DNA from: Basidiobolus meristosporus CBS 931.73
Taxonomy: Eukaryota > Basidiobolomycota > Basidiobolomycetes > Basidiobolales > Basidiobolaceae
Assembly (NCBI GenBank): GCA_002104905.1
Contig: MCFE01000001.1
Location: 186,001-250,000 of the forward strand
Reading direction: 5' to 3'
Length of the DNA: 64,000 nucleotides
The notes under the pieces are model-generated. The model had not been told where the DNA came from. It searched no databases and was given only the letters and a program-made list of their open reading frames with translations. Made by a program: the position numbers and the translations under genes. The number at the start of each line of letters is the position of its first letter. The stretch's first letter is position 1. Shown here piece after piece: positions 25,740-35,224 of the stretch.

Positions 25740-26025
25740 ATTGATGAAAGTGATGATCATTTACAGCTGAGGGACTGCCTCCATTAATACTTTTCTCACC
25801 AGCTGAGTGATCACTAATCATGGTGTTCCAGAAGGTTCCAGAGATTAACAGAAATATTGATGACCTTTGAATGAGCAAAGAAAATTTTAAGTACATTCCA
25901 GATGGCTCTTAGTGGCACATCACATCCAGCCAATCAAGGAGCAGTATTCTGAAACCTGTGTAACACAGGGATACCATTATATGCAATGAAAAAGGTAGGG
26001 ATGGCAACATGGTCTGATCATTTGC
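25740..26025 (-). repeat. family-X LTR, second part
   Basis: It continues the LTR begun at 20121 and is collinear with 41150-41435 of the solo LTR. It breaks off at about 26025, short of the expected end. Confidence 0.72.
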
Positions 26026-26029
26026 ATTA

Positions 26030-27540
26030 TGCCAACAACTTAGAACTGTGGTTCCACTTCACAAATATATGGGAGGATTGTGAAAGTGTTTGCTGTTTTT
26101 ACTGTAAAACTTGATAGTGTCTTAATTATCCCTTAGGGGGACTTCAATGGCATTCTGATGCTCTTAATACCTTCTGCATTTATTTAAGTCTACCCAATTA
26201 GCCAATGATTGCAAATGCATTATAGATGAAAAGACCTATTGGTGTTCCGCTGGCCTTAAAGTGTACCTCTGAGGGCATTGTCTTGGCAGTACAGCAGCCT
26301 ACAGAGAATAGCCCAAAATACTTTAATGCCAGCTCACCAAATTGTACTATACTTTTCACCTCCCTTTGCACCATTATTATATTTTACTACCAATTTCCCT
26401 ACTTATTTGGATACCCGTACTACCGTGGGCATTTCATTTAGAGTAAAGATAACAAGTTTATGACCTCCTGATCACCTACTTCTCTGTACAGGTGCACAAG
26501 CTGCCATCAATACACTACTATTGCAATAGCTTTGCTGCTCTTCAGTGTGCTTCTTGCAAATTTGTCAAAAACCTTCTATTGCTGAATGCATGTACTTCTT
26601 GCAAACACATGCATATTTATCACTACTCTTGCCATAAATACCTCATCAATACTTGCAAAATACTTTTCAGTACTATGCCAACATATCCTTTCTCCCTGCT
26701 GGACTCTCTCCCCACTTATAGGCAAGCTCTGGGCCTTGTTGTGCCTATTCTATATCAACAAGCAACAGAATGGGCTTTTACTCAGGAAGATCAGACACAC
26801 TAAGAACAGTAGTCCTAATGGAAATAGTTGCCTGCAGCATTTCACTCAAGCTAACAATACTCTGCTATTTACATGCATACTCACACTGCTTAGCTTCTTG
26901 ATACCAAAGTCATAGGTCCTCTGATTTATATTGTTGTGCTTAGAGTTTTCTAATTCTTCCAGGCTGTCTTCCATGTGCAAACCCAGCACATCCTAATGGA
27001 CCTGAAACTAATATTTATGATGAGATTGAGATATTGCAGTTCTTGCAGCCCCAACTGGCTACCTGGCTACACATAGATCTGATCCATTGAAACTCCCTAA
27101 AGGTAAAGCATGGTTCAATATTTTCCACACATCAAGCAAGATAAAGTACAGAGTGCATTCAGTAATGGCTGGGATCTCCATATTCAGCCTTAAGTTTGGA
27201 TGTAGCTGCTCATTTCCTTACTCAAACTCCCTGCACAAGAGCTGTAGATATGTTAATTTGGCATTGGTAAGCTGCTTCTGGATAAACATTCTTCTAATCA
27301 GAGCACATAAATCCAAATACCTTCATTGACCCAGTGTTAATACTTTTGCAGTGTGTAACTTGAGAGCTACTTACCCAGTTCTTCCAGTGGTTGCATTGGT
27401 ATTGTTGCATATTTGTAGCCAATGTGGATACTTTGATCAGTAAGAGTGTTGGAGAGTTGTTGATTCCACCCTAATATTTGCCTAGCTTATCATCTCATTT
27501 CTCCTCCCAATCATTTCTAACACCACCAGGGAGTTTACAA
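26030..27540 (-). pseudogene. Tnp2 transposase C-terminal half, copy E
   Basis: The reverse complement follows element B from about 60470 to 61830. It includes the block around the 60660 stop, the NIEPCFTF-EFPMEQ region (near 27075-27130), the ILLVNIQEVFI-like region near 26650-26720, and the 3' flank near 26090-26340. It is much diverged with no long frame. Plus-strand open frames here are antisense artefacts. Confidence 0.72.
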
Positions 27541-27866
27541 GAGAGTTGCACCTCTTTAATTGCTTACACATTACTACCATGGGCATTTCATTAAAGCCAC
27601 AATGGGAATAAGTGATGGCTTCCTGCTTACCAACATTTACATATGCATATACCCACTGCAACTAGCACAGATCCATTACCTTGACTTTATACTATTAGGT
27701 ATGATACTTTCAAAGTTGCAACATACCTTGTTTCTCAATACAATCCTTCACATTGCTGAGGTCATGTCTCTATTATAGGAGTAAACTGACACCTTTTGTG
27801 CAAATTTTACATTGAAAGATGCAGAAATTTGCTAGTACTAAGAAGAAAGCTGGGGTACTATAACAA
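27541..27866 (-). pseudogene. Tnp2 transposase C-terminal fragment F
   Basis: A second, shorter match to the same C-terminal region follows copy E in the same orientation. Shared blocks include the CACATTACTACCATGGGC stretch (27568-27585) and the segment near 27690-27740 that matches element B around 61340. It is a separate remnant. Its right part, next to the solo LTR, is unassigned. Confidence 0.55.
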
Positions 27867-28240
27867 AGTTTGAAGAAATATGCTTATCATGTGGTGTTGT
27901 GCAGCAGCTATAAATTGACTTAGCAATTCCAGACTAGTATCAGTCACTACAGGACTAGTTGACATTGTTAAGTTTGCCACTCTTTCTCAGATCTATGGTT
28001 CTATGATTATTCCCCTACAGTTATTATCAAGTAGGACTTTGACCATGCTTCATGTATTGACCCTAAGACTTTTACAGTAAGATCCTGAATATCAAGAAGT
28101 TCTTCCAAGTTAGTGTTACAGATGTATTACTTTTACAATGATATAAATACTGAGGAATTTTATGAAATAATAACAGCTCAACTATTAGCATTGCTTGCTG
28201 ATAAGTACCTTATATCCAAAACACTTCTGAAATTGCAACA
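27867..28240 (+). repeat. old copia-B solo LTR
   Basis: It aligns over about 370 bases with the reverse complement of the copia-B LTR at 30055-30422. Shared blocks are GATTATTCCCCTA, GTGTTACAG-TGTATTACTT and the terminal TTGCAACA. It is much more diverged than that pair. No clear target duplication was found. It lies at the 3' edge of the RPB2-like pseudogene. Confidence 0.75.
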
Positions 28241-30054
28241 TATCAAGATTGATGAGAATTAGGGGCTTACATTGATACATAGTCATCATTTAATTTTATA
28301 TTCATTAACATGCACTGCCTCATATAGAACTGTCTTAAACACACAGAGTAGATGGGCATATCCTGTCTGTTAAGATTTTGTGGCTCAGGAATAACAGCAC
28401 TGTATAAGTGGAATGGAACTTCTTGAGGAGGGGTTCAAGCTAGTTCCAACAGAGTGCTCACAACACCCATTGTATATCTTTCATACATTTGTATGCATCT
28501 GCTGTAAATGGTGTTCCATCTTTTGTCTATCCATGTATAGAACAATCTTTACCAACCAAAACCTTCCAAAAGTTGGTCAATTGTCATATGTCCAGGAATA
28601 GCATGTGGACTAATAAATATATCAGGCACAATACCTTCTTCAGTATATGGAAAATCTTCCTGTGGTAGAATAATTGTGACAACACCTTTCTGCACATGTC
28701 TAGAAGCAACTTTGTCACCAACTTCAATGTATTTATGAAAATTGAAATAACCTTGACATGCAAGTGTTTAGAATGTGAAATCTTGGTGGCCTTACCCTTA
28801 TGACATTTGACAACCCAAATTTTTGTTGGTAATTGCATCAAATATGGTACATAATAAGTCACCATCTTCCAGTATGCCACCAACTGTTGAAACACCATTT
28901 ACGTATTTAGTTTCATCAAAAATATCCTGGTTACAATAATTGCAGATTTGTTACCCAAAAGTTCACAAACATTGACATGTTGGGTAAAAGATTGAAACAA
29001 ACCTTGGTCAACAGCAGCTTTGGAAATAATAACACCATCTTTTTGGTTATATCCAGTATAAGATTGTATCATGACAACTAATTTAACCCTGTTGGGTTGT
29101 TTATCCATTTTTAATAGATCATAAGCAAATGTATTGACCAATGGCACCTGGGCAGATTCCAAGAAGTTTGTATCTCCAGAAGCTATGGTAGAAGGGGAGT
29201 GAAGTTGCATACCTTGTTTGATCATGGCAGAAGCAAAGACATTACACGCAGACTGGTTGTGGTTGCCATTGGGGACCATAGAGGCTGGAATACCCATCAT
29301 TACCCAGGGATGAATTTTCATGTGAGTATACATATGATGGTGTCCATGATATCCAATACCACCCAGGGTGATCTGGGATTGTTCACCAGGATTGACAAAT
29401 TCTATCTTACCAGGTTCTAAAAGAAAATCCCAGGAGAGAGAATTTAACTTGTTTCAATCTATTGGTGTACCAAAGAGTTCAAAAGGTGGTCTCATAAATT
29501 GGTCAGAAGAATTTTTGATGTAAATAATTCTGGGGATGGGTTTGTAATAGAGGACAAAGATCATGGGATGAATTTGTTTAAGTTTTTTTTGAAGATGTGC
29601 CAAGGTGCCACCATAAAAGCCAATGATGTACCTGTCTAAGAGAACAGGATGTTTGACGTCACAATTGTTGAAGGATAAATTATTTTTTAGCCAAGTTTGC
29701 GCTTTGCAAAATTTTTCATTGGAGATGGTGGGAGCAAACAAGTGAGGGAGAGATGTTAAATAATACCAACAATTTTGCCTTCAGGGGTTTTGTAGAGACA
29801 GATGTAACCCAACTGGCTGGGGTGAATGGCTTGCATGTGAATGTTAGAAGTGCTTTTGTCACAGGGGACATTAATTTTGCAAACCATGGAGAGCTTGTCA
29901 ATGGTGGATTTGCACAAGACCAAGTCAACCATCTTGGAATAGATTTTGTTGTTTATAATTTGTTGACCTTCTTTAGCATGGTAAAGAGTTTATCCTCCAA
30001 AAAAGCTTGCAGACAACTTCTTATGCCAGAGAGTTTGATGGCACAAGAAAAGAT
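28241..30054 (-). pseudogene. RPB2-like RNA polymerase subunit, C-terminal two thirds
   Basis: On the minus strand, in the order of the second-largest subunit of multisubunit RNA polymerases, these signatures are visible. HPSQLGYICLYKTPEGK is near 29770-29830. GTLAHLQKKLK and the external-domain segment are near 29540-29620. NHNQSACNVFASAMIKQ is near 29215-29270, YTGYNQKDGVIIS near 29015-29060, [12 protein letters not shown] near 28683-28720, and [18 protein letters not shown] near 28588-28645. A weaker clamp-proximal region continues to about 28260. In cellular subunits these motifs line the active site and hybrid-binding region. Stops and frameshifts (for example near 29758, 29745, 28915 and 28755) show it is dead. 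No introns are evident. Viral, plasmid or divergent host origin cannot be settled from this sequence alone. Confidence 0.88.
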
Positions 30055-30422
30055 TGTTGCAATTTAAGAGGTGATTTGGATACAAGGAAAGTATCAAGAA
30101 ATAGTGCTAGTAGTTGAACTGTTGTTTATTAGTAAAGAAGCTCAGTATTTATACCTTTGTAGAAGTAATACAGCTGTAACACTAAGTAAGGAGGGTTTCT
30201 CAGTATTCAGGAGCATTTTGTAACAGTTTCAGGGTTAGTACATAATAGTTAGTATTAGTGCTAATTTGATCCTGACTATAGGGGAATAATCATAAGATCA
30301 TAAATCTGAAGAAAGGGGCAAAGTTAGAGCTGCAAATTAGTGTCACAGTGACCAAGACTAATCCAAAATTGTCAGTAAGTTTTTAGCTGCAGAATGATAC
30401 CAAATAGTCCAATACTTCAACA
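30055..30422 (-). repeat. copia-B 3' LTR
   Basis: The termini TGTTG and CAACA are perfect inverted repeats. It is very similar to the LTR at 34015-34383, with scattered substitutions, mostly transitions. Confidence 0.93.
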
Positions 30423-30433
30423 CTCCGCCTCAA

Positions 30434-33400
30434 CTAAATAATTTCTTAATCTTGATTCCTCCCTGAGATTCTCAAATCGTGTCCTAGCTAGTGGCTTTGT
30501 CAATATATCTGCTATCATTTTGTTAGTTAGGCTGTACACTAACTCTACTAAGTTATTTTCTACAGCTTTCCTCACAAATTAATGATGTATATCAATGTGC
30601 TTAGTTCTGGTATGATTAGTAGGATTTCTAGCTAATGAAATACAACTTTGATTATCCTTGTAAATACATGTTGGCTCATGTGAATTAAAACCTAAGTCTT
30701 TGAGTAATCTTTGTAGCCATATAGCCTCCTTAGTTGCTTTACATGCAGCCGTATATTCTGCTTCAGTTGTAGATAGGGCCACAGTTGGTTGTTTCTTGCA
30801 ATTCCAAGTAATTGCTGCACCAGCATAGAGAAATACATAGCTTGTGGTAGAGCGTCAGTCAATCAGATCCCTACCCCAATCTGAATCACTACAACCATCA
30901 ATTTTTTGCCTATTAGCTGCTCCAGAGTATTCCAGTACCATATTTATGGTACCTTGTAGATATCTGAAAATCCACTTAACTACTACAATTTGATCTGACT
31001 CATAATTCTGCAGGAATTGAATGACTATTCCAACAGCTACTGCAATATCTAGACATGTAGACACCGTCAAGTACATTAGACTACCCACAATTGATTGATA
31101 GGGAGAGTTTTGGTCCACATTTGAGCCATTTTCATCTATAACTGGCTGAGATTTGCTTAATTCCAGGTTATTGTGCATAGGGGTAGCTGATGGTCTGCAA
31201 TTTCCATTTAAAGCATCTACTAGTATCCCTGATGTAGTTGGACTGATTTAGCACAATATTCTGCATAGGGATGTCAAATTTGACCTCAATTCCAAGAATA
31301 TAGCTCAATTTTCCAAGATCTTTCATCTCAAACTCGCTGAAGAGATCTGATTCTTATTTTTAAGTGCCTCTTGGTTACTTGTAGCTATAATTAGGTTGTC
31401 CACATAAAGAACTAGGATGATCACACCCATTGTGAGCTGTTTCACGTACATAATGTGATCTGCAGTGCTTCAAGAGTACCCAGTTTCCTGTAGATATGTG
31501 TCAATCTTGTTATACCATGCTCTAGGTGCCTGCTCAAGCCCATACAACAATTCTCTAAGTTTGCACACCTTATGGGGGTCTTTTGGATTGGTAAAACCTT
31601 CTGGTTGCTCCATATATATAGCTTCTTGCAAATCCCCATTTAGAAAGGCAGTTCTGATGCCCATTTGGTGTAGATCTAAATTGTGTACAGCTTACAGGGC
31701 TAGAACTGTCCTAATGGAGTTAAACTTGGCAACTGCGGCAAATGTTTCCTTAAAATCTAGTCCCTGGAGCTGGGAATAGCCTTTAGCCACCAATCTAGGC
31801 TGGTACTTATTAATGGCACCATTTGAAGTTATCTTGATCTTGTAGACCCATCTACATTCTATTGGCTTTCTCCCATTTGGTATATCTACCAGTTCCCACA
31901 TTTTTGTCTTGATCAATGTTTGGTACTCCTCCTGCATGGCTTGTTGCCACATAGTAGCATCTGGACTTTGCATTGCCTGTTCCAGATTCTGAGGTTCAGC
32001 ACATAAGGCAAGACAAGCTTTGTCATGATCATTGGATGACTGCTACCAGGATCCAGGGGCATTTCTTATTCTGGTGAATCTCCTAACTAGGATAATCCTG
32101 AGGTGCTGGAGATCTGGTTTTTTGCCTGTATATGCTTCAAAGGGTGTAGAATCACATAGTGCTAGGTGTGTGGTCTTGATGTATATTGAGGTAGCAACAG
32201 ATTCAGCCCAAAACTTGTAGTCCATTCCCTTATCATGTAGCTTATATCTTTCCATCTCTACTATTGTTCTATTTGCATGTTCTGCTAATCCATTTTGCTG
32301 TGGAGTATAAGAACTGTGGTCTGCTGAAGTGTACCAGTAGGCAAGCAGTATTTTGCAAACTCCTCTGAGCAGTATTCTCCTCCATTGTCACTTTGTAGTA
32401 CTTTCAATTTACACCCAGTTTGTGTTTCTGCCAGGTTCTTGAAGTGCTTAAACGTCTCTAAAGCTTCATCCTTTGTCTTGAGGAAGTACACCCATGTATA
32501 TCTTGTTTTGTCATCAATAAACATCATAAGATTTCACTTGGCTGCAAGGGATACTGTTCTCATTGGGCCACATATGTCTGAGTGTACAATTGCCAATATT
32601 TTGGTGGTATTGAAGTCTTCTGAGCTTTTGAAATGTTGCCTAGCTTGTTGCCATTTGAACATCCCTTGCAAACATTCAATTTGATTGGAATTGAGTATAA
32701 TAGGCCCAAAACAAGCTGATTTCTCACCAATTTGCTCATTTTCTGTTCCCCAATTTGTCCAAGCCTCCTATGCCACATCTCCCAGTTGGTTTCATCAGTT
32801 TCAGCAATTTTGACATCCATACTGATTCCCAAAGCTAATTTTTGTCCAATCTCACTCAATATTGAGCAGCTCTTCCTAGTAAAAACAAATTTTAGTCCCT
32901 GAGCAGTTGCTTTACTGACTGAGAGTAGGTTCTTAGCTATTACAGGTACATAGAGTACATCAGCAAGTCTTGCTGTTGTTGCCCCTGACCTATTGCTCAT
33001 ATTTGGTTGTATAGACCCACTTGCGGTAGCTTCCAGAGCAGAGTTCTCTCCCAGATAAACCTTTCTTAAAGGACTAGTGCTTAAGTTGCTGAACCACTCC
33101 TTTATACCACAAATATGCTGTCATGCACCAGAGTCAATATACCACTCATAACTTTGGTTACTTGCACTCTCTTGTACAGTTACAAGTAGCTGCTCATCAG
33201 TAGTTATATGGTGTGCCTGCTCTAGTTTCTGTTTTTTGCCTGTTTGTTTCTTCTTGCATTCTCTTGCCCAGGGTCCTGGCTTTTTACAATATATGCAGCA
33301 ACCAGGTTATCTTTGGTTTTGTTGCTTTCCCTTCTTTTCTGTGTGCCTCTCTGAACCAAATAAAGCATTAACTTCAGTTTTTTCTGCTTGATCATTATGT

Positions 33401-33978
33401 CTGAGTTCTTCATGGAGAAATCTTCCTTTGGCATAGTCTAAAGTCAAATTGTCTTCTCTGCATTCAAACAAGAGTACAAGTGGCTCATACTTGTCTGGTA
33501 GGCTGCAAAGCAGACAGAGTATCTTTTCATCATCATCTACACCAGCATTAATACTGTAAAGATCTTCTGCAAGAGTCTCCATATTGGTAACAAGTAGCAG
33601 CATGTCATCATCTGGCTTCTTCCTCATGTTGAAGAACTTTTGTTTTAAATAAAGCTTGCTTGATACTGACTTTGCTCCAAAGATCTTCACTAAGGATTCC
33701 CATGCTGCTTTGGCAGTATTTGAAGCATGGATTTGTCCAATGTAGGAATCTTGCACATTGATATATATGGCATTAAAGGCCTTTCTCTCCTCTTGAAGCT
33801 TCTCCACTTGTTCTGCTGTTCCTTTGGGCTCAACTTCTTTTCCTGTTACTATATTTCAAAGCTTCCTTTCCTCAAGGTGGATCTGCATCTTAATTCTCCA
33901 AAGTCTGTAGTTCTTTCCATCAGACCTCTCCTTTACAGGTAAGATGTTTGTGTTGTTCTGTTTACTGGTAGAAGTCAT
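30434..33978 (-). pseudogene. copia-B gag-pol polyprotein remnant
   Basis: The start codon is at 33978. The gag domain runs to about 33300 with a Trp-to-stop change near 33870. The knuckle CIYCKKPGPWAREC (near 33250-33300) has its His replaced by Pro. Protease keeps YIDSGA (near 33130-33150). The pre-integrase domain is EMWHRRLGQ (near 32770-32795). Integrase shows FIDDKTRYTWVYF and the catalytic LQSDNGGEY (near 32370-32395). Reverse transcriptase spans about 31370-31975 with VLYVDN in place of YVDD (near 31400). RNase H has DSDWGRDL and ALSTTEAEYTAA. A handful of stops and frameshifts separate long open stretches. Confidence 0.92.
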
Positions 33979-34002
33979 CTTTAGAATAGATTAAGGCAAT
34001 TG

Positions 34003-34014
34003 GGGCTCATAACC
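34003..34014 (-). other. copia-B primer-binding site, half-tRNA type
   Basis: On the minus strand GGTTATGAGCCC follows the 5' LTR with no gap. It is complementary to the anticodon arm of initiator tRNA-Met. Copia A3 has the same 12 bases at 46175-46186. Confidence 0.85.
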
Positions 34015-34383
34015 TACTGCAATTAAAGTAGTGATTTGGATATAAGGAACTTATCAAGAAATAGTGATAGTAATTGAGCTGTAGTTTATTAGTAAAGAAG
34101 CTCAGTATTTATACCTTTGTAGTAGTAATACAGCTGTAACACTAAGTAAGAAGGGTTTCTCAATATTCAGGAGCATTCTGTAACAGCTTAAGAGTTAGTA
34201 CACAATAGTTAGTATTAGTGCTAATTTGATCCTGACTATAGAGGAATAATCATAAGATCATAGATCTGAAGAGAGTGGCAAAGTTAGAGCTGTAAATTAG
34301 TCTCACAGTGACCAAGACTAATCCAGAATTTTCAACTAAATTTTCAGCTGCAGAGTGATACCAAATAGTCCAATATTTCAACA
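34015..34383 (-). repeat. copia-B 5' LTR
   Basis: It ends CAACA on plus, directly followed by AAGAT. Its other terminus has decayed from TGTTG to TACTG. It is the partner of 30055-30422. Confidence 0.93.
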
Positions 34384-35224
34384 AAGATTTGGTCTCAAAA
34401 GATGTTGGAAGATTTGCCAAGTTTGCTTCCATAATCATCACAATCCATGGGTTGGAGAAGATCCATAGAGGTCATAAGGGCAAGTTAAAATAACAGGGCA
34501 AGGGTATAGACAATGCTAATTTTAGCTTGCATGGGGAAATATTTGGATCCTAGAATATGTGGATCTTTGGGGGAGATGATGTTTTCAGAGTTGATCATGG
34601 TGGCCATGAAGATGGTGGAGAAAGTATTTACATGAAAATGGTTGGCATCAAGGAGGGCATGTATTTTGTAAATTTTATTGAAGTCAAAATCAAGATTATT
34701 CAGGATCCAATAGAGCCATAAAGATGGGTAGAGGAGATGTCTAGATAAAGGTCAACGGAATTTTCAATGCAAGCACATAATGGGAGAAGGGAGTCCCTGA
34801 AGCGGTTTTTGCAGGAGACAACATTATCAGCAGCGGAGATGTAAGGGACAACAATGTTGCATAATTTTGAATTAGAGGTACATGTTCAATGCCATCAATG
34901 AAGTAGTATCCTCTGTGGTTAATAAGGGGGAGTTTGCAGACAAGCTGGCTGTTGTGGTGCATGGGATGTCCTTTCCAAGTTATACGTTGAGCAATTGCAT
35001 CATGAGGGTGAATTTTAGGGGGAATAAATTTTGTGTCATGACCAAATTTTTCCTTGAGCTAGATTTGAATTTTTGCAAGACATAAGTGTGGGAGTGGGAG
35101 ATGTTAGCATTGAAACCATATTTGTCAAAAAATTCTGTAGGATGTTGGTACAGGTATGGAAGAGAGAGGGGTGCATGATAACCTGATGGATATGAGTGGT
35201 TAAGGGTAATGTCATTTAATCCTT
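34384..35224 (-). pseudogene. RPB2-like RNA polymerase subunit, N-terminal third
   Basis: This continues the pseudogene across the copia-B insertion. GYYFIDGIEHVPLIQ near 34870-34920 is the protrusion/lobe signature (cellular form G-Y-F-I-x-G-x-E-K). It is preceded by a stretch matching the usual N-terminal region. DDYGSKLGKSSN near 34405-34440 corresponds to the DDRDxxGxKR motif before the fork. The spacing between these two motifs is about 160 codons, shorter than in cellular subunits. With the other part, about 885 codons are preserved, against roughly 1,100-1,200 in cellular RPB2. Stops occur near 34700 and 34530. The 5' end is lost at the gypsy fragment. Confidence 0.82.

Follow-up and report, generated by a model that had tools for sequence, protein, structure and literature searches.

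The minus strand of positions 28497-35200 in a stretch of 64,000 nucleotides of the Basidiobolus meristosporus CBS 931.73 genome (hereafter the window) is occupied by a decayed gene for an RPB2-like RNA polymerase subunit. This gene falls in a separate clade, made up of RPB2-like proteins with a short length (~900 aa) that come from metagenomes and Mortierellaceae, and several other copies of it are present in the same genome. Broken RPB1, RPB5-like, primase-like and PolB-like genes are also found in this genome, and a similarly built pair of primase and RPB1 genes lies on a contig from a virus collection. These pieces very probably go back to a lineage of large dsDNA viruses, or to a virus-derived element, that became endogenised and is now scattered in the genome; it resembles the Nucleocytoviricota without being placed among them.

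The decayed gene and its copies in the genome

The seven RPB2 signatures that the earlier note had described around a copia insertion were confirmed by a motif scan: all are on the minus strand, in the correct order, flanking the copia element on both sides. Five of the seven patterns were absent from every frame of 200 base shuffles of the segment, DDYG being seen in 1 shuffle and NHNQ in 6. The piece covering residues 1-208 (Table 1) carries GYYFIDG and DDYG together with 2 in-frame stops. That covering residues 208-728 is fragmented by changes of frame, contains 5 in-frame stops and carries HPSQ-GYIC-TPEGK, NHNQ, GYNQKD (a Lys replacing the Glu of the GYNQED motif), GDK-ASRH-QKG and GIVPD-PHAIPG-MT. 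The profile search recommended in the same note gave RNA polymerase family matches above cut-off in 3 of the 8 open pieces of the window scanned with Pfam, namely RNA_pol_Rpb2_6 at 28552-28767 (92.2 bits) and 28902-29453 (62.8 bits) and Rpb2_3 at 29759-29989 (32.5 bits), all on the minus strand. The fork, hybrid-binding and C-terminal domains of Rpb2 were found in order, as Rpb2_3, Rpb2_6 and Rpb2_7 in a paralogue on contig C180 and as Rpb2_3 and Rpb2_6 in the window.

Altogether the window gene shows 7 in-frame stops, frame changes, the copia insertion and the loss of its C-terminus, the last ~150 codons being absent. Its gene-like sequence (~28497-30054 and 34386-35200) amounts to roughly 790 codons instead of the ~885 initially proposed, and 713 codons are alignable with the C180 paralogue. 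The DNA homology to C180 upstream of the C180 open frame stops at ~35200, short of the place of a neighbouring 213-aa gene. The latter is an orphan with a single relative in the protein database; it had no Pfam match over cut-off and its ORF had no match in the window. Eleven other element proteins or protein pieces, compared with the window, gave no match either.

Table 1. Features of the window related to the RPB2-like gene (residues in C180 numbering)
Feature	Position	Strand	Evidence
N-terminal part of decayed RPB2-like gene	34987..35200	-	blastn, window 34384-35200 vs L010:4113-4954, 85.5%
RPB2-like residues 1-208	34386..34986	-	tblastn, three alignment pieces, 73-85% identity
RPB2-like residues 208-728	28497..30054	-	Pfam, tblastn, motifs
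copia-type LTR retrotransposon inside RPB2-like gene	30058..34383	-	LTRs 92% identical over 300 nt
LTR-like stretch	27969..28237	-	blastn, 73.7% over 270 to copia LTR
Segment common to window and contig C662	26025..34248	.	93-96% DNA identity

The two copia LTRs (30058-30357 and 34018-34317) have diverged by 8%, and the isolated LTR-like stretch starts ~260 bases past the end of the gene homology. The copia LTR joins the gene at an identical codon in the window and on contig C662; either the segment shared by both was duplicated later, or C662 is an allelic contig.

The C180 paralogue has a nearly open frame of 879 codons in which the conserved motifs are retained, with Rpb2_3, Rpb2_6 and Rpb2_7 above cut-off and the last of them at the end of the frame. 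Its N-terminus is cut off, a stop codon separating the open frame from its own N-terminal stretch, and the protein predicted by NCBI from this locus has 485 aa. Further RPB2-like fragments lie on contigs C662, C539, C514 and C476. The dN/dS ratios are 0.10-0.22 between the two copy lineages (0.10-0.14 for C180 against the C539, C514 and C476 copies), 0.78 and 0.94 within lineages and 0.56 for C180 against the window gene, which indicates purifying selection between the lineages and an almost neutral divergence within them. Contig C842 (30.2 bits) was discarded as a possible copy, the C180 protein matching nothing there, and C683 and C602, the latter of the RPB1 family, were treated as copies of host type. 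PF00136 matches of the sixth level, on C578, C1116, C538, C427 and C598, were assumed to be host polymerases.

Placement and length of the short RPB2-like proteins

Phylogenetic analysis put the short family, C180 and one window piece on one side of a branch with support of 100/100. Constrained trees that forced C180 and the window piece to join the host were rejected, whether for all three host rows (p-AU 2.23e-10) or for host row B alone (p-AU 7.77e-82), which goes against the placement inside the host RPA2, RPB2 or RPC2 clade that the earlier note had set against its own reading. Identity of the window family is ~30% to all three host rows and 31-47% to its relatives from metagenomes and Mortierellaceae.

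A normal length in better copies, also foreseen as a counter-indication, was not observed, the 879 codons of C180 being matched by a median of 919.5 aa among the C180 relatives listed (P0002-P0113). The overall shortness claimed for the gene is real, but the distance between its first two motifs shows it only weakly, being 154-180 residues in 11 short-family rows and 168-202 in 15 rows of archaeal type or from virus contigs. Other regions are the shortened ones. The residues preceding motif 1 number 77-140 in 10 short-family rows (C180, whose frame starts late, being left out of this count) against 139-250 in the comparison rows. From DRDDYG to HPSQ there are 93-96 residues in the short family against 112-136 in the archaeal-type and virus-contig rows, and from GYNQED to GDK 57-113 against 124-148. 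The lobe domain model Rpb2_2 had no match in C180 (E up to 1) or in any of the nine relatives scanned (E up to 0.1). The predicted model of the relative P0002 can still be superposed on Pol II and Pol III subunits along ~800 residues, and the short family may keep a diverged or trimmed lobe.

Scans of IMG/VR with C180, P0005 and P0052 retrieved no relative. Among the 20 loci of profile A1, all 15 put in the tree fell outside the short clade, L029, L035, L039, L044 and L047 being left unplaced. Against prokaryote genomes, 80 of 80 among the matches listed for this profile carry archaeal titles, with 29-35% identity, and some of its archaeal loci served as RPB1 outgroups.

Associated genes in the genome and on a virus contig

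Primase-like, RPB1 and RPB5-like frames stand in a row on one strand of contig C367, and C575 keeps the order primase then RPB1. The C367 RPB1 is short and broken into two frames separated by a stop. The RPB5-like match of C367 is unsplit, unlike those for the RPB5 of the host itself (C375, C391), which fall into exon-like pieces. Decayed pieces of a B-family DNA polymerase also occur elsewhere in the genome. A small ORF is common to C367 and C476, where it lies ~1 kb from the RPB2-like fragment, and the RPB2-like P0086 and the primase-like P0126 each report an NCBI contig of 37,136 bp. On the basis of this shared ORF and of the equal size of the reported contigs, RPB2, RPB1 and primase may come from one element. 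The identification of the primase is putative and motif-based: a DxD, a histidine and a third acidic motif, which we take to be those of the archaeo-eukaryotic primase superfamily, were matched by eye, and the motif-like residues are invariant in six of six sequences. The protein had no Pfam match, and comparison with solved structures gave three weak matches, to unrelated proteins, the predicted model being poor (pLDDT 44).

On an IMG/VR contig of 17,169 bp, a relative of this primase-like protein (33-35% identity to three Basidiobolus-type proteins, 45-48% to P0125 and P0126) adjoins an equally short RPB1 of 629 aa. Each of the two Basidiobolus RPB1 frames can be aligned with this protein over almost the whole length, and it stops at the same place. 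In the RPB1 tree, one Basidiobolus piece joins the virus contig with support of 100/100 on long branches, and the other piece is not resolved. The other genes of the contig include an open DNA polymerase, a helicase, TFIIS and a uracil-DNA glycosylase. For its PolB, matches to PF00136 and to the exo1 domain are listed and none to PF03175; it aligns with the C573 piece at 33% (103 bits). The RPB1 and PolB identities between Basidiobolus and the contig are only 29-33%, and the contig is perhaps not the very element that reached Basidiobolus. No RPB2 match was found on it, and its capping-like protein has no relative in the Basidiobolus genome. Scanning for PolB, and for the primase with A7, gave nothing beyond this already known contig; the profile A4 scan gave one long subunit of 2453 aa.

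Possession of RNA polymerase subunits and of a B-family DNA polymerase, a trait of Nucleocytoviricota, is found in the genome pieces and in the IMG/VR contig genes. The models for the double jelly-roll major capsid protein (PF04451) and VLTF3 had 0 matches in this genome, where only broken pieces remain; both absences are uninformative since no control was matched either (0 of 14 genomes for VLTF3). The A32 packaging ATPase and the D5 primase-helicase also had 0 matches among the broken pieces, their controls being matched in 2 and 3 of 14 genomes, respectively.

Origin and comparison with known systems

The separate clade and the rejection of a host placement support the proposal of an endogenised viral or plasmid gene. 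A virus-like origin is favoured over a linear plasmid on the basis of the separate RPB1, RPB2 and RPB5 genes, the primase-like gene, and the primase relative, short RPB1 and ordinary PolB of the IMG/VR contig. The RPB2 of a large dsDNA virus or derived element would have entered the Basidiobolus nuclear genome. In the free element, the short RPB2 would have been paired with the short RPB1 and the RPB5-like subunit to constitute the element's own RNA polymerase, alongside the primase-like protein and the B-family DNA polymerase; after entry, the pieces would have been scattered, duplicated and broken by transposons, and would now be drifting. We infer a single source element for all the pieces, a capsid-bearing one that infected the fungus and whose subunits assembled into a working polymerase. 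More tentatively, and with a little less than an even chance in our view, the source could be a still-extant dsDNA virus lineage of soil fungi (Basidiobolus, Mortierellaceae), given no family assignment here, with a stand-alone primase-like gene and a pared-down RNA polymerase, from which Basidiobolus took up members of two sublineages. In this same tentative picture, the polymerase would combine the short RPB2 with an RPB1 ending early in its fifth domain, the rest being lost or split off.

Cytoplasmic linear plasmids, such as those of yeasts, are fungal DNA elements carrying an RNA polymerase, a capping enzyme, an SF2 helicase and a DNA polymerase; their RNA polymerase large subunit is a fusion of RPB2- and RPB1-like parts and their DNA polymerase is protein-primed. 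The remains of such a killer-type plasmid, trapped in the nucleus with its own RNA polymerase, would fit the overlap in gene content and the lack of a detected capsid gene (by a model without control match). This origin is nevertheless unlikely, given that RPB1, RPB2 and RPB5 are separate here (the C180 frame ends with Rpb2_7 and RPB1 is on another contig), that a primase-like gene is present and that the PolB of the contig, which may not be the very element of Basidiobolus, has PF00136 and exo1 matches and none listed to the protein-primed family PF03175. Moreover, members of the family report contigs of up to 137,086 bp (P0046), perhaps more than the element alone.

Explanations centred on the fungus are weaker still. 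Domestication of a virus-derived gene, with C180 as the working copy and the window gene as its dead duplicate, could account for the long open frame with its motifs, for the NCBI prediction and for the low dN/dS of C180 against C539, C514 and C476, which could reflect host selection. It is rendered quite improbable by the stop severing the C180 N-terminus, by the near-neutral within-lineage pairs and the intermediate value for C180 against the window, and by the RPB1-like frame being broken as well. An origin of the gene as a decayed paralogue of the host RPA2, RPB2 or RPC2 is hardly credible: the genome does contain extra host-type copies, such as C683, which groups with host row B in the tree, but the window family stands in another clade, with its closer relatives in metagenomes and Mortierellaceae.

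The virus-like origin can be compared with the giant endogenous viral region, related to Asfarviridae, of Rhizophagus irregularis (PMC10640383). That region likewise brings a viral PolB and large and small RNA polymerase subunits into a fungal genome, and the major capsid, A32 and D5 genes were not found there either. It differs in forming one 1.5-Mb block with a VLTF3 gene, whereas Basidiobolus, from another fungal phylum, has small, scattered and broken pieces, its RPB2 belonging to a short clade, its RPB1 ending early and its primase-like gene standing alone. NCLDV-like genes were also reported in Gonapodya, Allomyces and Rhizophagus (PMC5294986), again early-diverging fungi, but that work deals with different hosts and different markers, and its text has 0 occurrences of Basidiobolus and Mortierella. 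Mriyaviruses, small viruses related to the giant ones and found for the most part in metagenomes, are without RNA polymerase subunits and DNA polymerase (PMC11253617), both of which are present here.

The 2023 Rhizophagus paper states that to date no dsDNA virus was known to infect fungi, and makes its case from genomic fossils (PMC10640383). Basidiobolomycota would now join the fungi with such fossils, here tied to a set of proteins from metagenomes and Mortierellaceae and to a contig of a virus collection in which the DNA polymerase and RPB1 genes are open; these ties provide concrete markers with which living DNA viruses of fungi can be sought. The reduced size of RPB2 and the early end of RPB1 are also relevant to the question of the minimal multisubunit RNA polymerase.

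That shortened RPB2 subunits are typical of giant viruses stands only in part. The best BFVD match of the P0002 model, the RPB2 of the nucleocytoviricot Pithovirus LCPAC104, shares its fold (Foldseek E 1.9e-60) but has 22% identity and 1171 aa, the short family being reduced in three regions, and several Nucleocytoviricota orders are matched at 17-22% identity. The nine best viral structure matches measure 1094-1433 aa; shorter ones exist lower in the list, such as an RPB2-like protein of a nucleopolyhedrovirus (846 aa, rank 36, 10% identity).

The RPB2-like gene of the window and its copies in the genome

All seven RPB2 motifs that the earlier note had read on both sides of a copia insertion are present in the window in the correct order, and Pfam RPB2 domains lie above cut-off in three open minus-strand pieces. 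The window copy can be aligned over 713 codons to a nearly open paralogue of 879 codons on contig C180; 7 stops interrupt its frame, which also shifts in places. It lacks about the last 150 codons, and an LTR-like stretch follows ~260 bases past the point where gene homology ends. The LTRs of the inserted copia element are 92% identical. Where C180 and C539 have the acidic pair ED of GYNQED, the window has KD and the C662 copy ND. The window gene is dead.

A Rpb2_6 search of the genome of B. meristosporus, assigned to Basidiobolomycota in the NCBI taxonomy, gave 15 matches. The long frames on C793, C462 and C1024 were taken as the host subunits, as an RPA2/RPB2/RPC2 set without individual labels, and C683 groups with one host row. 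Members of the short family, a clade of ~900-aa RPB2-like proteins, were recovered by tblastn on C180, C1 (the window), C662, C539 and C476, and the C514 copy was found beside its neighbour gene, this count being a lower bound; the Rpb2_6 match on C842 was assigned to neither the host set nor the short family. Residue for residue, the NCBI protein P0001 (strain CBS 931.73) matches the C-terminal 485 amino acids of the C180 frame. Since the copia LTR meets the gene at the same codon in the window and in C662, with high DNA identity (see table), the segment they share was either duplicated later or lies on an allelic contig.

Placement and structure of the short family

The C180 protein search returned 551 matches among 8000 candidates scored, and the relatives described here are the best 120 of these. 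Among them, P0002-P0113 (690-1101 aa, median 919.5) show 31-47% identity to the C180 protein and are mostly metagenome proteins, the named ones coming from Linnemannia elongata, Podila clonocystis and Mortierella sp. GBA30; P0114-P0120 are longer. In a 49-row tree taking in 22 of the 112 shorter relatives and the seven longer proteins, these 22 together with C180 are set apart from the remaining rows, all seven longer ones among them, by a branch with SH-aLRT 100. The same split was obtained at 100/100 in a careful 23-row tree, which also groups the 184-aa piece of the window with C180 at 100/100. Forcing C180 and the window piece together with the host rows was rejected, which makes the decayed host paralogue that the earlier note had kept as its alternative very unlikely. 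No deeper branching order is claimed from these trees, whose rows are without named virus references, because of the long branches of host row C and P0107.

The shortness of the subunit had been ascribed to the interval between the first two motifs; this was not borne out, three other regions accounting for it. A match to Rpb2_2 (lobe) is absent in C180 and in all nine relatives scanned, and a 19-row alignment of the family keeps the GDK-SRH-QKG residues and much of GYNQED. The structure model of P0002 (pLDDT 78) aligns over ~800 residues to the B subunits of Pol II and Pol III, and its top nine matches in BFVD are Nucleocytoviricota-type or ascovirus subunits (1094-1433 aa, 17-22% identity).

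Putative companion genes and an IMG/VR virus contig

On C180, C539 and C514 the RPB2-like gene is adjoined, in divergent orientation, by a 213-aa orphan ORF with one database relative, P0121, on a Logan contig. One strand of C367, the contig to which the NCBI protein P0122 corresponds, encodes a primase-like frame of 305 codons, an RPB1-like stretch divided into two frames by a stop, and an RPB5-like frame; the matches to RPB5 of the host itself are broken up in exon-like fashion. The 10 primase-like matches are spread over eight contigs of the genome, the order primase then RPB1 is preserved on C575, and a 73% relative, P0124, is a Basidiobolus ranarum protein. P0086 (RPB2-like) and P0126 (primase-like), both reported from a contig of 37,136 bp, are taken to share it. 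PF00136 pieces occur on C573, C377, C757, C127 and C1248, besides matches assumed to be host polymerases; the PolB-like pieces of the two contigs read, out of five, are 53% alike over 152 residues.

The IMG/VR record IMGVR_UViG_3300046454_001203 (17,169 bp) holds an open 629-aa RPB1 followed directly by a primase-like gene, whose product stands at 45-48% to P0125 and P0126 and at 33-35% to the Basidiobolus-type proteins. Both Basidiobolus RPB1 frames align nearly end to end with this RPB1 (29-31% identity), and they share its stopping point, early in Rpb1 domain 5. In RPB1 trees one Basidiobolus piece joins the IMG/VR protein at 100/100, both branches being long, and the other is without a resolved placement. 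Further products of the contig are a PolB (279.6 bits), an SF2 helicase, a uracil-DNA glycosylase, a TFIIS zinc ribbon and a 592-aa protein resembling a capping enzyme by eye, its Pfam matches all sub-threshold. No RPB2 match was found on the 17,169-bp contig, and no relative of the capping-like protein in the B. meristosporus genome.

Coordinates of features on Basidiobolus and IMG/VR contigs (L, retrieved locus)
Contig	Coordinates	Feature	Remark
C1 (window)	26025-34248	Segment shared with C662	93-96% DNA identity
C180	L010:8116-9621	DDE_Tnp_4 transposon near RPB2-like copy	92-96% DNA identity among the three
C514	L022:1-1507	DDE_Tnp_4 transposon near RPB2-like copy	Abuts second half of 213-aa ORF
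C539	L015:3807-4625	DDE_Tnp_4 transposon near RPB2-like copy	
C514	L022:2382-3320 (minus)	Adjoining 119- and 193-aa frames near RPB2-like copy	No Pfam match; possibly element parts
C683	4188-5493 (L005, L013)	Further host-type RPB2 copy, with host row B	Pieces in several frames; decay or introns
C602	187054-187675 (L051, L053, L054)	RPB1-family match in pieces	With TAG
C679, C425	L048, L049	Two host RPB1-type genes	Nearly identical
C367	L056:1581-1922	Small ORF with Cys/His-rich motif	No Pfam match over cut-off
C476	L016:3042-3341	Small ORF, 95% alike to that of C367	No Pfam match over cut-off; ~1 kb from RPB2-like fragment
IMGVR_UViG_3300046454_001203	L153:4094-7510	1138-aa open lectin-like frame	B_lectin match just over cut-off; perhaps a surface protein
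Another IMG/VR contig	L154:6173-13534	2453-aa RPB2 frame with long insertions	Intein-like by eye

Proposed history and origin of the element genes

By Nei-Gojobori counts, dN/dS of C180 is 0.14 against C539, 0.13 against C514 and 0.10 against C476 (the comparisons with C476 being made against C180), with a rough dS of 1.1-1.25, and that of C1 and C662 against C539 and C514 is 0.19-0.22. Within lineages it is 0.94 (C1-C662), 0.78 (C539-C514), 0.56 (C180-C1) and 0.57 (C180-C662). The simplest reading of these sequence comparisons is that the RPB2-like gene would have been functional in replicating elements during the divergence of two sublineages, then entered the genome at least two times and drifted afterwards; alternatively, selection may have acted within the host, before the copies were duplicated. 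In RNA polymerases generally, the active centre is built from RPB2 and RPB1, with RPB5 at the jaw; the short subunit would have served in transcribing the element's own genes.

The main claim of the earlier note, a decayed RPB2-like gene possibly endogenised from a virus or plasmid, is supported, and the choice it had left between virus and plasmid is mostly, not fully, settled for a virus, a capsid gene still missing. The find is real and informative: a fungus with fossil genes from a large DNA virus-like lineage. Gong et al. 2020 reportedly described fossils of dsDNA viruses from several phyla of fungi, so some of the finding may have been published before. No paper on this element was found among the matches listed for Basidiobolus or Mortierella and giant viruses. 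Two articles do treat large DNA virus fossils in fungi as known (PMC10640383, PMC5294986), mriyaviruses are described as devoid of both RNA polymerase and DNA polymerase (PMC11253617), and a gene of a fish iridovirus was reported to find its best match in a Basidiobolus HIRAN-domain protein (PMC6563503).
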